In this document: piece by piece, positions 51,398 through 56,357 of the stretch | Layout of the letters: each line of letters opens with the position of its first letter | Numbering within the stretch: position 1 is the stretch's first letter | Assembly (NCBI RefSeq): GCF_018141545.1 | Contig: NZ_CP064356.1 | Span: forward strand, 2,059,001 to 2,123,000 | Length of the DNA stretch: 64,000 nt | DNA from: Miltoncostaea oceani | GTDB lineage: Bacteria > Actinomycetota > Thermoleophilia > Miltoncostaeales > Miltoncostaeaceae | Direction of reading: 5' to 3' | The notes under the pieces: generated by a model | Told to the model about the DNA's origin: nothing | Seen by the model: only the letters and a program-made list of their open reading frames with translations | Database searches by the model: none | Position numbers and translations under genes: made by a program

Positions 51398-52609
51398 GTG
51401 GTGGACCCCGTCGCGGGGACGCTGGTCGTGGGTGCGGGGCTCGCCGGCAGCGCGGTGGCGATGCACCTCGCCGAGATGGGCGAGGACGGCGTCGTGGTCG
51501 TCGACCCCGACCTCGCGGGCGTCCGCTCCTCGTCCGAGCTGAACGCCGGGGGCGTGCGTGCCACGTGGTGGCGGCCGGTCAACGTCGACCTGTGCGCCGC
51601 GACGATCGCGGAGCTCGCCGGCCACGGCGACGCCGTCGGGTTCCGCGAGCGCGGCTACCTGTGGCTCCACCGGCCCGGCCGGTGGGAGGAGGCCGTCGCC
51701 CACGTCGCGATGCAGAACGACCGGGGCCGCGAGGTGGAGCTGCTGACGCCCGCCGAGGTGCGGCGGCGGTTCCCGTTCATCGACCGCGTCGACGACCTCG
51801 CCGGCGCGACGTTCTCGCCCCACGACGGGCTGGTCGACCCCCACGCCGTCCGCGAGCTCTACCGGGCGCGGGCACGGGCGGCGGGGGCCCGGTTCGCCGA
51901 CCGGTCGATGGTGACGGCGGTCCACGTCCGGGACGGGCGGGTCACCGGCGCCGACGTGACGGAGGTCGACGCCCCCGGGGCGGACGCCGCCCTGCAGGGC
52001 GCCCCGGCGCGGGGCGCCACGACCCGCGTCGCCTGCGCGCGCCTCGTCAACGCCGCCGGTCCGTGGGCGGCACCGCTCGCCGACCTGATGGGCGCCCCCG
52101 TGCCCTGCCGGGCGGTGCCGCGGCAGGTGTGCCTGGTCGGCACCCGCGACGTCGACCTCTCCCCCTACGGGATGATCGTCGACGCCACCGACGTCTACCT
52201 GCACCACGAGGCGGAGGGGTTGTTCCTGGCGGGCTACTCGCCCCCCGGCGACCCCCCGGCGTACCGCTTCGACTACGAGGGCGCCGCGTTCTTCGAGCGC
52301 GAGATCTGGCCGCGCCTCGCCCACCGCGCGAGCGCGTTCGACCGGCTCGAGCACGTCCGCGGCTGGACGGGCCTGTACGAGCTGTCGCCCGACAACTCCG
52401 CCCTGCTCGGCGCCGTCGGCGGCCTGCGGGGGGCGTTCGAGATCCACTCCTTCTCGGGCCGAGGGGTGATGCAGTCGTGGGCCGCGGCGCTCGCCCTGGC
52501 CGAGCTGATGGTCCACGGCGAGCACCGCACCTTCCCGTCCGCCGCCGCCCTGTCGGGGGCGAGATTCGCGGGCAACGGGGAGCGGCAACCGGAGGAGCTG
52601 CACATATGA
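51398..52609 (+). CDS. FAD-dependent oxidoreductase (DAO family)
   Basis: 403 residues from GTG 51398, 4 bases after a GGAAGGAGG site; the next codon is also GTG. The dinucleotide motif TLVVGAGLAGSAVAMHLAE is near the N-terminus and VVVDPD follows at the ribose acid. Later parts (LVNAAGPWAAPLADLMGAPV, WTGLYELSPDNSALLGAVGG, IHSFSGRGVMQSWAAALALA) match the DAO superfamily of sarcosine, glycine or D-amino acid oxidases. It probably oxidises a secondary amine or N-methyl amino acid. The stop codon overlaps the start of the palindromic element by one base. Confidence 0.85.
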   Translation: MVDPVAGTLVVGAGLAGSAVAMHLAEMGEDGVVVVDPDLAGVRSSSELNAGGVRATWWRPVNVDLCAATIAELAGHGDAVGFRERGYLWLHRPGRWEEAVAHVAMQNDRGREVELLTPAEVRRRFPFIDRVDDLAGATFSPHDGLVDPHAVRELYRARARAAGARFADRSMVTAVHVRDGRVTGADVTEVDAPGADAALQGAPARGATTRVACARLVNAAGPWAAPLADLMGAPVPCRAVPRQVCLVGTRDVDLSPYGMIVDATDVYLHHEAEGLFLAGYSPPGDPPAYRFDYEGAAFFEREIWPRLAHRASAFDRLEHVRGWTGLYELSPDNSALLGAVGGLRGAFEIHSFSGRGVMQSWAAALALAELMVHGEHRTFPSAAALSGARFAGNGERQPEELHI

Positions 52610-52768
52610 GCCTGGATCCGGCGGAGATCGTGGATGCGGGGCGCGAAAGCGCCGCGTCAGGCGGGATTCGGCGTCGCACCGGGAGGGTGACCCCTGCGGT
52701 CGCGCCGAATCCCGTATGGCGCGAGCGATCTCGCGCATCCGCGCCGCGAGATACGGCGGATCCAGGCT
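52609..52768. repeat. 160-bp branched palindromic element
   Basis: Nested perfect inverted repeats form a multi-arm structure. Outer stem: AGCCTGGATCCG (52609-52620) with CGGATCCAGGCT (52757-52768), 12 bp. Inside: GGATGCG (52632-52638) with CGCATCC (52734-52740). First arm: GGCGC-GAAA-GCGCC (52640-52653). Central stem: CGGGATTCGGCG (52662-52673) with CGCCGAATCCCG (52703-52714), 12 bp, capped by an ACCG/CGGT hairpin. Last arm: GCGCGAG-CGAT-CTCGCGC (52719-52736). It starts at the stop codon of the FAD gene and ends at the first codons of a broken DUF429 gene. It could be a small structured RNA, a MITE-like insertion or a strong terminator; it has no T run. Confidence 0.7.
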
Positions 52769-53058
52769 GAGGACGCTCGGCATCGACCTGGCGGCGTCGC
52801 CGGAGGGCACCGGCACCTGCGTGATCGAGTGGGAGCCGGGCCGCGGGCGCGCGGTGGCTGCGCCTCGGACGCGGGGGTCGGGCCGCGTGCGCCGGCCGTC
52901 ACGACGTGCTCGACGCCCTCGTCAGCGCCCTCGTCGCGCGGGCCGTCGACCGCGGGGCGACGGCCACCCCGCCCCCGGAGCTCGCGGCCCCGGCCCTCCG
53001 GGAGGGGTGGATCCACGTCCCCGCGGCTGGCTCGCTCGGGGGCCTCGCGACCGCGTGA
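52767..53058 (+). pseudogene. internally deleted and frameshifted DUF429-family gene
   Basis: The first part reads LRTLGIDLAASPEGTGTCVIEW (N-terminus of DUF429, an RNase H-like family of 230-280 residues). The last part, in a frame shifted by two bases, reads RHDVLDALVSALVARAVDRG ... REGWIHVP, the DUF429 C-terminus. Between them only about 90 bp remain, so roughly 150 codons are missing. No start codon is seen before the first part because the palindromic element runs directly into it. It is a remnant, probably damaged by the same event that brought the element. Confidence 0.7.
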
Positions 53059-53108
53059 GAGCAGTCTCACGCCCGGCTCACGGGGGTCTCACGCAGCGCT
53101 CCTAGGTT
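53056..53108 (+). promoter_or_regulatory. promoter of basic-protein gene 1, phased repeats plus -10
   Basis: Three hexamers spaced 11 bp apart, TCTCAC (53065), GCTCAC (53076) and TCTCAC (53087), are followed at 10 bp by TAGGTT (53103-53108), a plausible -10. The palindrome TGAGA-GCAG-TCTCA (53056-53069) overlaps the first. An 11-bp phased direct repeat next to a -10 is the usual target of OmpR/PhoB-type response regulators. The same layout occurs before gene 2. Confidence 0.6.
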
Positions 53109-53145
53109 CCTCCTCGACAGCAACCGACCACTGAGGAGGAACACC

Positions 53146-53301
53146 ATGGCCGCCAAGTTCACCGCGATGATCCCCGCCTCGCGAGGCCATTCCGCCGACT
53201 CGAACAGCAACTCGGACTCGGACGCCCCCAAGCGCCGGCGCCGCCGCAGGCCGAAGCCGCGCCGCCGCATCCGCCGGCGCCGCCGGAACACCAGCTCGTA
53301 G
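53146..53301 (+). CDS. 51-aa arginine-rich basic protein, copy 1
   Basis: Starts at ATG 53146 with GAGGAGGAACACC upstream. The N-terminus MAAKFTAMIPASRGHS is followed by a Ser/Asn/Asp linker (ADSNSNSDSD) and a very basic C-terminus with 16 arginines and 3 lysines in 24 residues (PKRRRRRRPKPRRRIRRRR), ending NTSS. It should bind DNA, RNA or membranes; protamine- or histone-tail-like. No family known to me matches. It is almost identical to the second copy 110 bp downstream and has its own promoter, so it is a real expressed gene rather than an accidental frame. The reverse-strand frame over these bases has no supporting signals. Confidence 0.8.
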   Translation: MAAKFTAMIPASRGHSADSNSNSDSDAPKRRRRRRPKPRRRIRRRRRNTSS

Positions 53302-53310
53302 CTCCGCCGG

Positions 53311-53370
53311 GCGGGGATGAGAGCACTCTCATCCCCGCCTCACGGAGGGCTCACGACCCGTTCCTACATT
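53311..53370 (+). promoter_or_regulatory. promoter of basic-protein gene 2, with palindrome and phased repeats
   Basis: A perfect 13-bp inverted repeat with a 2-bp centre spans 53311-53338 (arms GCGGGGATGAGAG and CTCTCATCCCCGC). It overlaps the first of three 11-bp spaced repeats: TCTCAT (53327), CCTCAC (53338), GCTCAC (53349). TACATT (53365-53370) is the -10, at the same 10-bp distance as in the first copy. The palindrome may also end transcription of gene 1. Confidence 0.6.
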
Positions 53371-53411
53371 GCCCTCCGTCACCCCGACGACCCACGACGA
53401 AGGAGAGCGTC

Positions 53412-53564
53412 ATGGCCGCCAAGTTCACCGCGATGATCCCCGCCTCGCGAGGCTATTCCGCCGACTCGAACAGCAACTCGGACTCGGACGCCCCCAAGCG
53501 CCGGCGCCGCCGCAGGCCGAAGCCGCGCCGCCGCATCCGCCGGCGCCGGAACACCAGCTCCTGA
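53412..53564 (+). CDS. 50-aa arginine-rich basic protein, copy 2
   Basis: Starts at ATG 53412 after GAAGGAGAGCGTC. It differs from copy 1 only by His15 to Tyr, loss of one Arg codon near the end, a synonymous change in the last Ser codon and the stop (TGA for TAG). The nearly identical nucleotide sequence, including synonymous sites, means recent duplication or gene conversion, while flanking sequences have diverged outside the promoter motifs. Function is unknown; the sequence suggests nucleic-acid binding. Confidence 0.8.
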   Translation: MAAKFTAMIPASRGYSADSNSNSDSDAPKRRRRRRPKPRRRIRRRRNTSS

Positions 53565-53588
53565 CCCGACCCGCCCCGACGCGCGACC

Positions 53589-53615
53589 GGAGGCCCCGCC
53601 CACGGCGGGGCCTCC
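53589..53615 (+). terminator. hairpin downstream of basic-protein gene 2
   Basis: GGAGGCCCCGCC pairs perfectly with GGCGGGGCCTCC across the 3-base loop CAC, 24 bp after the stop of gene 2. No T run follows, but the 12-bp stem is strong. It separates the basic-protein genes from the ABC transporter gene, which begins 13 bp later, so it could also attenuate that gene. Confidence 0.7.
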
Positions 53616-53628
53616 TCGTGCTGCCGTG

Positions 53629-55467
53629 ATGCGATTCCGCCTGTGGCTGCGCCGGATGCTGATGCCCGAGGCCTCGGGCCCGCAGCTCGTGGACGCGGCC
53701 CCCCGGGTTCCGGTCCGCACCATCTTCCGGCGCTTCTGGCCGGACGCGCGCCCGTACCGGAAGTGGATCGCGATCGGGATGGTCTTCGCGGTCGTCGTCC
53801 CCGCCATCGAGACCGCCGAGATCTGGCTGTTCAAGCTCGTCGTCGACGAGGTCCTCGTGCCGGGCGACCTCGGTCCCCTCGGCTGGATCGCCCTCGCGTA
53901 CGTCAGCCTCACGCTGATCGGGGCGGTCATCAACTTCGGTGACAGCTACCTGGCCGCGTGGGTCGGGGAGCGCTTCGTGCTGAACCTGCGCACCCGCGTG
54001 TTCGCCCACATCCAGCGGCTCTCGGCGGGCGACGTCGACAAGCGGCGCGTCGGCGACCTGGTCAGCCGGATGAGCGGCGACGTCGCCGCCATCGAGACCG
54101 TCGCCCTCGCCGGCATCGCCGACCTGCTGTCGGCCGTCTTCCGGATCCTCTTCTTCGGCGGCGCCCTCCTCTACCTCGAGTGGAGCCTCGCCACCGTCGC
54201 GCTCGTCATCGCGCCGCTCTTCTGGCTGACGGCGCGCAGCTTCTCGCGCCTCACGAAGAACGCCGCCCGCGAGAAGCGGCGGCGCAGCGGCTCCCTGAGC
54301 GCCGTCACCGAGGAGAGCCTCGCGAACGCGTCGCTCGTGCAGGCGTACAACCGCCAGGACGCCGAGGTCGCGCGGTTCCGCCGCGAGGGCGAGGGGATCA
54401 TGGAGGCCGAGCTGGCCTCGACCCGCATCAAGGCGCTGTTCACGCCCGTCATCGACATGCTCGAGCTGGCGGCCGCGCTGCTCGTGATCGGGCTCGGCAC
54501 CTGGGCGGTCACGGAGGGGCGCCTCACGATCGGCGGCCTGCTGGTGTTCCTCGCCTACCTCACCCAGCTCCTCGGCCCCGTCCGCGACCTCAGCTCCCTC
54601 GCGAACTCGGTGTTCGCCGCGGCCGCCGGCGCCGAGCGGGTCATCGAGCTGCTCGACGAGGAGCCCCGGGTCGCCGACCGCCCCGGCGCCCACGTCCTGA
54701 CGGGGGCCCGGGGCGTCGTCGAGATCGACGACGTCTCCTTCACCTACCCGGGGGCCGACGCGCCGGCCCTGCGGAACGTGTCGTTGAGAGCCGAGCCCGG
54801 CGAGACCGTCGCGCTCGTCGGGCCGAGCGGCGCCGGCAAGTCGACGCTCGCCCGCATGATCCTGCGCCTCCACGACCCCGACGCGGGCGTCGTGCGGCTC
54901 GACGGCCACGACGTGCGCGACGTGACCCTGGCCTCGTTGCGGGACTCCATGGCCGTCCTGATGCAGGAGACGCTGGTGCTGCAGGCCTCGGCGCGGGAGA
55001 ACATCGCCGTCGGGCGGCCGGACGCCACCGACGACGAGATCGCCGCGGCGGCGCGGGCGGCGGGCGCCGACGGGTTCCTGCGCGCGCTGCCCGAGGGCTA
55101 CGACACGATGCTCGACGCCCGCGGGCGCAACCTGTCGGGCGGCCAGCGCCAGCGGGTCGCGATCGCACGGGCCCTGGTGCGCGACGCCCCGCTGCTGATC
55201 CTCGACGAGCCCTCCACCGGGCTCGACGAGCTCACGCGGCGCCGCCTCGTGGAGCCGCTGCGCGAGCTGATGCGCGGCCGCACCTCGATCGTCATCTCCC
55301 ACGACCTGCTGACGGTGCGCGACGCCGACCGGATCGTGGTCCTCGACGCCGGGCGGGTCGCCGAGGAGGGCACCCACAGCGAGCTGCTGGCCCGCGACGG
55401 CCTCTACGCCCGCCTCTTCCACGAGCGCGAGACCGCCGCCGACGCCGCCGGGGCGGTCCCGGCGTGA
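53629..55467 (+). CDS. ABC transporter, fused membrane and ATPase domains (exporter type)
   Basis: 612 residues from ATG 53629 (a GTG directly upstream is possible). Residues 40-340 hold the six-helix exporter membrane domain (WIAIGMVFAVVVPAIETAEI, ETVALAGIADLLSAVFRILF). The ATPase has Walker A GPSGAGKST near residue 400, the signature LSGGQRQRVAIARAL, Walker B LLILDEPSTGLDE and a switch histidine in VISHDLLT. This half-transporter would work as a dimer, exporting a lipid, peptide or drug. It overlaps the kinase-like gene by GTGA, so the two are co-translated. Confidence 0.9.
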   Translation: MRFRLWLRRMLMPEASGPQLVDAAPRVPVRTIFRRFWPDARPYRKWIAIGMVFAVVVPAIETAEIWLFKLVVDEVLVPGDLGPLGWIALAYVSLTLIGAVINFGDSYLAAWVGERFVLNLRTRVFAHIQRLSAGDVDKRRVGDLVSRMSGDVAAIETVALAGIADLLSAVFRILFFGGALLYLEWSLATVALVIAPLFWLTARSFSRLTKNAAREKRRRSGSLSAVTEESLANASLVQAYNRQDAEVARFRREGEGIMEAELASTRIKALFTPVIDMLELAAALLVIGLGTWAVTEGRLTIGGLLVFLAYLTQLLGPVRDLSSLANSVFAAAAGAERVIELLDEEPRVADRPGAHVLTGARGVVEIDDVSFTYPGADAPALRNVSLRAEPGETVALVGPSGAGKSTLARMILRLHDPDAGVVRLDGHDVRDVTLASLRDSMAVLMQETLVLQASARENIAVGRPDATDDEIAAAARAAGADGFLRALPEGYDTMLDARGRNLSGGQRQRVAIARALVRDAPLLILDEPSTGLDELTRRRLVEPLRELMRGRTSIVISHDLLTVRDADRIVVLDAGRVAEEGTHSELLARDGLYARLFHERETAADAAGAVPA

Positions 55468-56357
55468 GCGCCCCCGGCCCGCCGCCCCTCGGCCCCGGCG
55501 CGGAGATCGCCCCCGGGTACCGCGTCATCGCGCACCTCAGCCGGGGGAGGACGCTCGACGTCTACGACGCGTGGAGCGACGTGCGGGCGACCCGCTGCAT
55601 CGCGAAGGCGCTGCGCCCCGACCGGCGCGACGACCGCGCCGCCGCCCGGCGGCTCGTGACGGAGGGGCGCCTCATCCGCCGCCTCGCCCACCCCCACATC
55701 GTCCGCGGCTACGAGGTCGTGACGGAGCCCCGCATCGTGGTGGTGATGGAGACCCTGACCGGGGCGACCCTCGCCCACCTGATCGACGAGGCCGACCCGC
55801 GCCTGCCGGTCACCGACGTCGCCCACCTCGGCCTGCACCTCGCCGCGGCGATCCGCTACCTGCACGGCGCGGGCTGGCTCCACCTCGACCTGAAGCCGTC
55901 CAACGTCGTGGCGGAGGCCGGCCGCGCGAAGCTGATCGACATGAGCCTCGCCCGGCGGCCGGGGCGGTGCCCCGCCGGGGTCGGGACGTGGTGCTACATG
56001 GCGCCGGAGCAGGCCCGCGGCGGGATCGTCGGACCGGCGGCCGACGTCTGGGGGCTCGGGGCGGTCCTCTACGAGGCGACGACCGGGCAGGCGGCGTTCG
56101 ACCCCGACCCGCCCCCGGGCTCCCCGCCGCCGCCGCCGTCGGCCTCGTCGGGCGACGACGACCGCCCCCGGACGTACCCCCAGCTCGACGGACCGCCGGC
56201 GCCGGTGCGCCGGCTGCGGCGCACGCCGCGCCCCCTCGTCGACCTGATCGACGCGTGCCTCGACCCCGACCCGTCGCGGCGCCCGGCCGTCGGGGCGGTC
56301 ATCGGCGCCCTCGAGCCCCTCGCGGGCCTGCCCCCCGCGGAGCGCCGCTTCTCCTGA
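55464..56357 (+). CDS. atypical serine/threonine protein kinase-like protein
   Basis: 297 residues from GTG 55464. It has the eukaryotic-like kinase fold: lysine in RCIAKALRPDR, HLDLKPSN as catalytic loop, APE in CYMAPEQARGG and the late helix ADVWGLGAVLYEATTG. However, the glycine loop is poor (LSRGRTLDVYDAW), the catalytic loop reads HLD rather than HRD, and the DFG motif is IDMS (DMS). The aspartates are kept, so weak activity is possible, or it may be a pseudokinase. There is a Pro-rich stretch before the last helices and no transmembrane anchor. Its coupling to an ABC exporter suggests control of that transporter. Confidence 0.8.
   Translation: MSAPGPPPLGPGAEIAPGYRVIAHLSRGRTLDVYDAWSDVRATRCIAKALRPDRRDDRAAARRLVTEGRLIRRLAHPHIVRGYEVVTEPRIVVVMETLTGATLAHLIDEADPRLPVTDVAHLGLHLAAAIRYLHGAGWLHLDLKPSNVVAEAGRAKLIDMSLARRPGRCPAGVGTWCYMAPEQARGGIVGPAADVWGLGAVLYEATTGQAAFDPDPPPGSPPPPPSASSGDDDRPRTYPQLDGPPAPVRRLRRTPRPLVDLIDACLDPDPSRRPAVGAVIGALEPLAGLPPAERRFS

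Follow-up and report, generated by a model that had tools for sequence, protein, structure and literature searches.

Tandem genes for arginine-rich low-complexity peptides and their linkage to an ABC exporter and a Ser/Thr kinase in Miltoncostaea oceani and other Thermoleophilia

Results

Two tandem peptide genes with separate promoters

We analyzed a window of 64,000 nucleotides (the whole stretch of DNA considered here, positions 2,059,001 to 2,123,000 of contig NZ_CP064356.1) from the genome of Miltoncostaea oceani. It carries two small tandem genes, each with an operator, a -10 element and a good Shine-Dalgarno sequence, followed by genes for an ABC exporter and a Ser/Thr protein kinase (Table 1). 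The full translation of the first gene is MAAKFTAMIPASRGHSADSNSNSDSDAPKRRRRRRPKPRRRIRRRRRNTSS, and the second protein differs from it by the change H15Y and by one Arg fewer. A preliminary description of this DNA had reported two near-identical genes with few differences, some of them synonymous, and this is what we found: 149 of 153 coding bases are identical, the rest comprising one amino-acid change, silent changes and the loss of one Arg codon. Two of its details need correction. The C-terminus is not almost pure Arg/Lys, since a conserved patch of Asn/Ser/Thr closes the tail, and genes of 150 nt are not strictly below the common limit of gene callers, so that they need not be too short for these programs.

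Table 1. Features of the peptide-exporter-kinase locus in the window
Feature	Position	Strand	Description	Evidence
Operator 1	53056..53091	+	TGAGA-N4-TCTCA-N7-CTCA-N7-CTCA	exact match
-10 element, copy 1	53103..53108	+	TAGGTT, 11 nt past last CTCA	
Shine-Dalgarno, copy 1	53133..53139	+	GAGGAGG	sequence
Peptide copy 1	53146..53301	+	51 aa, MAAKFTAMIPASRGHS...RRRRRNTSS, net +15	ORF, homologues, dN<dS
Operator 2	53318..53353	+	architecture as operator 1	
-10 element, copy 2	53365..53370	+	TACATT	
Shine-Dalgarno, copy 2	53400..53405	+	AAGGAG	sequence
Peptide copy 2	53412..53564	+	50 aa, net +14	ORF; 97% identical coding DNA to copy 1
G+C-rich hairpin, peptide-exporter gap	53589..53615	+	attenuator or terminator-like	
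ABC exporter	53629..55467	+	TMD+NBD, MsbA-like, 612-613 aa; GTG at 53626 or ATG at 53629	
Soluble Ser/Thr protein kinase	55464..56357	+	297 aa; start overlaps exporter stop (GTGA)	PF00069 5e-33

Over the 160 bases flanking the copies, identity falls to 68% on the upstream side, where most of it comes from the common operator and -10 element, and to 57% on the downstream side. Since the coding DNA is near-identical and the flanks have diverged beyond the promoter, the recent duplication or gene conversion already proposed would be limited to the coding part. The pattern agrees with two promoters that had been distinct beforehand, the coding DNA having been duplicated into them recently or exchanged between them by gene conversion.

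The gap between the second peptide gene and the exporter (53565-53625) folds at -38.3 kcal/mol (z -4.4), and hairpins resembling its G+C-rich stem were seen by eye at L015-L017. Given this stable hairpin, cotranscription of peptide and exporter genes may be absent. Separately, the window contains at 52607-52770 a long imperfect palindrome whose arms measure 44 nt (outer) and 21 nt (inner) and which folds at -95 kcal/mol (z -6.1). It lies just past the stop region of a gene ending at 52609 and is possibly a small mobile or regulatory element.

A peptide family under purifying selection

No Pfam, NCBIfam or PHROGs profile matched the peptide above its cut-off, in line with the earlier statement that no described family with this layout is known. 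The genome encodes a third paralogue on its 816-kb second replicon (C2), with the same promoter, unlinked and without an exporter. The C2 region around it had no close counterpart in the plasmid collection. This copy is 84% identical to copy 1 in coding DNA (dN 0.13, dS 0.48), and the peptide of the congener G001 gives dN 0.13 and dS 0.63. As dN lies below dS in both, the protein sequence is what is kept, and these comparisons establish, at the sequence level, the purifying selection that the preliminary description had suspected.

The homologues that it had proposed to look for exist in other genera and in a second family, with best E-values of 1e-20. Profile searches found full-length members in G001 (same genus), G017 and G018 (same family), and G267, G169, G129, G132 and G327 (second family, f7); the peptide of G045 was found through its operator. 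Overall, at least three families of the class have homologues. What these share is an N-terminus with M-x(0-3)-F-[ST]-x-x-x-PA close to the start; repeats of Asn/Ser/Asp or Asn/Thr come next, then a block of poly-Arg and finally a stretch of Asn/Ser/Thr. The peptide sequences are of low complexity (Arg/Ser/Asn/Thr), without Cys and with Trp in a single member of family f3. Ser and Thr make up 15-37% of residues in all members and Arg and Lys 14 to 42%; the poly-Arg members have a net charge of +14 to +20 and 31-42% Arg/Lys. No recognisable cleavage or secretion signal was found in the peptide sequence.

Scans of the named genome collection, with a single peptide and with an alignment, gave no confirmed relative because the complexity of the peptide is too low, and exporter-anchored mining was used instead. 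Weak partial Arg-rich matches inside long frames were set aside as composition noise, and L021 proved on inspection not to be a homologue. In G003, a complete single-contig genome of the same genus, neither peptide, exporter subfamily nor operator was matched. Hence, the module is accessory within the genus.

An operator with activator geometry and a small surface regulon

Each operator combines one inverted and three direct half-sites with an 11-bp period. The inverted half-sites of operator 2 form a perfect palindrome of 30 nt, which could also end the first transcript. The whole genome has exactly 6 perfect matches to the operator, and a reversed-pattern control has 0. They precede the three peptide genes and the genes for a secreted CotH-family protein (PF08757, 2e-38), a secreted beta-helix-like protein with a weak Bactofilin match below the cut-off, and a membrane-anchored acidic protein. 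We considered a Pho regulon, and none of the six sites lies at pst or pho genes. The operator recurs before homologous genes in other genomes, where secreted CAP-domain proteins (named by eye) and, in one genome, a kinase join the set.

Across 37 operator sites, the motif [GTC]A[G]NNT stands 11 nt past the last CTCA, with A at position 2 in 36 and T at position 6 in 33; this -10 feature was not part of the operator search pattern. Direct repeats spaced by 11 bp before a fixed -10 element are the class II activation geometry of OmpR/PhoB-type regulators. A two-mismatch site before a kinase-like gene (L049) lacks the -10 element and was not counted, and no operator was seen at the peptide-exporter-kinase triads of family f3. 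Among known operators, those of the PhoB/OmpR class (M. tuberculosis PhoP, PMC3413638) are alike in having direct repeats upstream of a fixed -10 and an OmpR-type regulator near the targets, but here the half-sites are CTCA and one of them is inverted. The operators of CutR (TAWATAAA, PMC12802291) and of C. glutamicum MprA (TKTTAAGAAM, PMC12113857) do not match.

Two secreted families under the operator deserve mention in their own right. The beta-helix-like proteins (L024 1570-2094; L061, L063, L067, L109), which have only a weak Bactofilin match, start with ADERxCRGxIGAxxVDxDVxVPxGAxC. Secreted CotH-kinase-family proteins (L023 190-1476, minus strand; L051) lie under it in two genera, a non-Bacillus setting.

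An exporter subfamily preceded by low-complexity peptides

The exporter of the window has the domains ABC_membrane (PF00664, 4e-49) and ABC_tran (PF00005, 1e-34), and reached no NCBIfam equivalog cut-off. Except for the extra copy on C2, each of the peptide genes described above directly precedes an ABC exporter gene. With an alignment of the transmembrane half only, we searched 399 genomes of the class and obtained 22 members of the subfamily, spread over 21 genomes, with an E-value cut-off of 1e-45; ten of them reached E<=1e-118 and the other twelve fell in the range 1e-102 to 1e-76. One exporter is truncated by the end of its contig. The other 21, whose upstream DNA is readable, all have a low-complexity Arg/Ser/Thr ORF of 39-55 aa just upstream; eight of the 22 had seeded the search alignment, and 13 of the 21 are non-seed. 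A strict automatic rule (Shine-Dalgarno, ATG, 35-60 aa, net charge of at least +10) holds for 17 of the 21 (18 with G045, whose region was seen in L138), and for about 1 in 137 other genes of the same contigs (5/141 in the raw control, before removal of four exporters missed by the filter). The link between peptide and exporter could be partly inherited synteny.

This mining revealed peptide types beyond the reach of sequence searching: G354 has an RS-domain-like peptide, G009 and G010 have poly-Arg with RT repeats after it, and family f3 (G278, G230) has peptides rich in Ser or Gly. A distinct type, in the same gene order, was noted at L123 and L125 of f3, where the peptide has RRKxxMTGFRRHETAK at its N-terminus and a tail of poly-Ser (S11-12). 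Like the window, G118 carries two peptide genes in tandem, which indicates that tandem duplication arose more than once. Its second exporter locus (L133 / L149) encodes a pure (RT)n/G peptide, MFKALKPASRGGRGGRTRTRTRGRTRTRTRGRTRTRTRG. Acidic residues in the first transmembrane helix of the exporter were considered as a marker of poly-Arg cargo. They are present in most such members, but we did not use them since the first aligns, by eye, with a common acidic position of MsbA.

A kinase that travels with peptide and exporter

A kinase gene follows the exporter at all 18 other loci checked (19/19 with the window), f3 included; the kinase of G233 was recognised by reading the frame. The catalytic motifs HLDLKPxN and DLS are intact in the window. 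The order peptide-exporter-kinase is invariant at the loci checked, in at least four families. The constant company of kinase, exporter and Ser/Thr-rich peptide suggests that the peptide is the kinase substrate. PADLOC matches of kinase and exporter were generic kinase and ATPase matches and are no evidence for phage defence.

These neighborhoods bear on two readings in which the peptide is not exported. One might imagine a small regulatory subunit, or a plug of the exporter controlled by the kinase, with the exporter moving a lipid or polymer: the linkage with exporter and kinase is one-to-one, the exporter is MsbA-like, and the kinase could switch the charge of the peptide. We find this improbable, as the tandem copies and the unlinked C2 copy without an exporter suggest a product whose dose matters, and the peptide promoters are separate from the exporter. 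The peptide might also bind nucleic acids in the cytoplasm, as a protamine-like or ribosome-associated protein whose gene lies beside that of the exporter by coincidence. It is small, without a signal peptide, and its poly-Arg members combine 31-42% Arg/Lys with Ser-rich flanks; protamines and other arginine-rich DNA-binding peptides likewise have Arg clusters, abundant Ser and possible phosphorylation. The context, in contrast, is one of membrane export and surface proteins: the exporter and kinase neighborhood is invariant in at least four families, the peptide is co-regulated with secreted and surface proteins, and orthologous positions hold poly-Ser or Gly-rich peptides, which makes this reading quite improbable.

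A divergent operon with a poly-Asp protein and a two-component system

In most lineages the peptide is also associated with a sensor system and with a surface protein whose poly-Asp tail is opposite in charge. In families f7 and f5, the peptide gene adjoins a divergent operon for a poly-Asp protein, a histidine kinase (HAMP, HisKA and HATPase domains) and an OmpR-type response regulator. The poly-Asp protein is membrane-anchored, with a charged or Pro/Ala spacer and a tail holding 12-22 acidic residues in the last 30. At L134-L137, in the second family, the divergent operons share operators, and G018 (L141) has six contiguous genes: peptide, exporter, kinase, poly-Asp protein, histidine kinase and response regulator. 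In M. oceani itself, the corresponding operon (C1:2155567-2158155, L184) is unlinked, 33 kb beyond the window, and its promoter keeps inverted half-sites only. Therefore, the role of the response regulator as operator-binding regulator is one that we infer, from proximity and the shared operator.

The same arrangement could be read as a three-component autoinducing system, in which an exported pheromone or antimicrobial is sensed by the neighboring histidine kinase and the poly-Asp protein acts as capture co-receptor or immunity sponge. The peptide is leaderless, highly cationic and of about 50 aa; its gene is duplicated in tandem both in the window and, as an independent event, in G118; and peptide, dedicated exporter, histidine kinase and response regulator stand under one common operator, which implies autoregulation. 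The four are linked in this way at L141 and L134-L137, and unlinked in the genome of the window. However, the hydrophobic or amphipathic segment of leaderless bacteriocins (PMC6131525) is absent, simple poly-Arg sequence gives little pheromone specificity, and in some families (f3) the triad has no histidine kinase or response regulator nearby. We thus regard such a system as unlikely, if still worth considering.

Discussion

The peptide family, its gene order, the operator with its geometry, the poly-Asp/histidine kinase/response regulator operon and the members of the regulon can be read directly from the genomes. From these sequences, synteny and operator geometry give good support to a six-gene module and a peptide family that are both new, and a limited literature search found no description of the module. 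The exporter, the kinase, the two-component system, the poly-Asp partner, the regulon and the third peptide copy go beyond the preliminary description. Among the functions it had offered, that of a secreted cationic peptide is now strongly supported on genetic grounds, through the invariant link to one ABC-exporter subfamily and the co-regulation with secreted and surface proteins; the protamine-like and ribosome-binding functions had composition in their favor and have become less likely, some relatives being poly-Ser rather than poly-Arg.

We propose an export module that is directed at the envelope, regulates itself and has the peptides as its cargo, a reading to which we give a rough probability of 0.55. 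The OmpR-type regulator would bind the CTCA direct-repeat operators and turn on the peptide genes together with a small surface regulon. The peptide, a presumably disordered low-complexity polycation with the short conserved N-terminus F-x-x-x-x-PA, would probably be phosphorylated on Ser/Thr by the kinase of the operon and then taken across the membrane by the adjacent ABC exporter. Outside, it may pair electrostatically with the poly-Asp tail of the Pro/Ala-spaced, membrane-anchored surface protein, and the pair may serve as a surface matrix or shield, or feed back as a signal. We infer export, phosphorylation, pairing and final role from gene content and composition. The resemblance of the exporter to MsbA and to lipid or drug exporters, which have hydrophobic substrates, counts against this reading, as do the lack of a recognisable secretion or cleavage signal, the hairpin between peptide and exporter genes, and the unlinked histidine kinase/response regulator operon of M. 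oceani with its reduced promoter. In addition, the Ser- or Gly-rich peptides of f3 have little net charge, so polycation and poly-Asp pairing are not a universal function. Export and kinase coupling would then be what characterizes the module in general, with poly-Arg as a variant specific to certain lineages.

Two known systems offer partial parallels. Judged by genes alone, the loci are similar to those of leaderless bacteriocins (enterocin L50/7, lacticin Q type), with cationic leaderless peptides of about 40-55 aa, tandem paralogues and a dedicated ABC transporter (here at 21/21 readable loci); they differ in that the peptide is of poly-Arg/Ser low complexity, without a hydrophobic or saposin-like core, and in having a kinase and a poly-Asp partner. 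The phosphorylation of spore-coat proteins by CotH in Bacillus (CotH-CotB/CotG, PMC7821199) also pairs a Ser-rich basic low-complexity protein with a Ser/Thr kinase in a surface layer, and the regulon of M. oceani has a CotH-family protein. Unlike in Bacillus, there is no spore coat, the kinase of the operon is a Hanks-type Pkinase (PF00069), export by an ABC transporter is proposed, and the CotH protein under the operator (in G000 and G009) is unlinked to the peptide.

Taken to its full extent, the proposal would describe an as yet undescribed secretion system with kinase-modified polyelectrolyte peptides, an ABC exporter, a surface complex of polycation and poly-aspartate and a dedicated two-component system; we advance this only tentatively. 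The module yields exact gene pairs open to test as well as an operator, and it gives a simple rule for finding peptides missed by sequence comparison, namely to inspect the DNA upstream of this exporter. If the proposal is correct, a little-studied class of actinobacteria would export tiny disordered polycations by means of an ABC exporter that is dedicated to them and coupled to a kinase. This would represent a new class of cargo for such exporters and an envelope strategy based on polymers of opposite charge.
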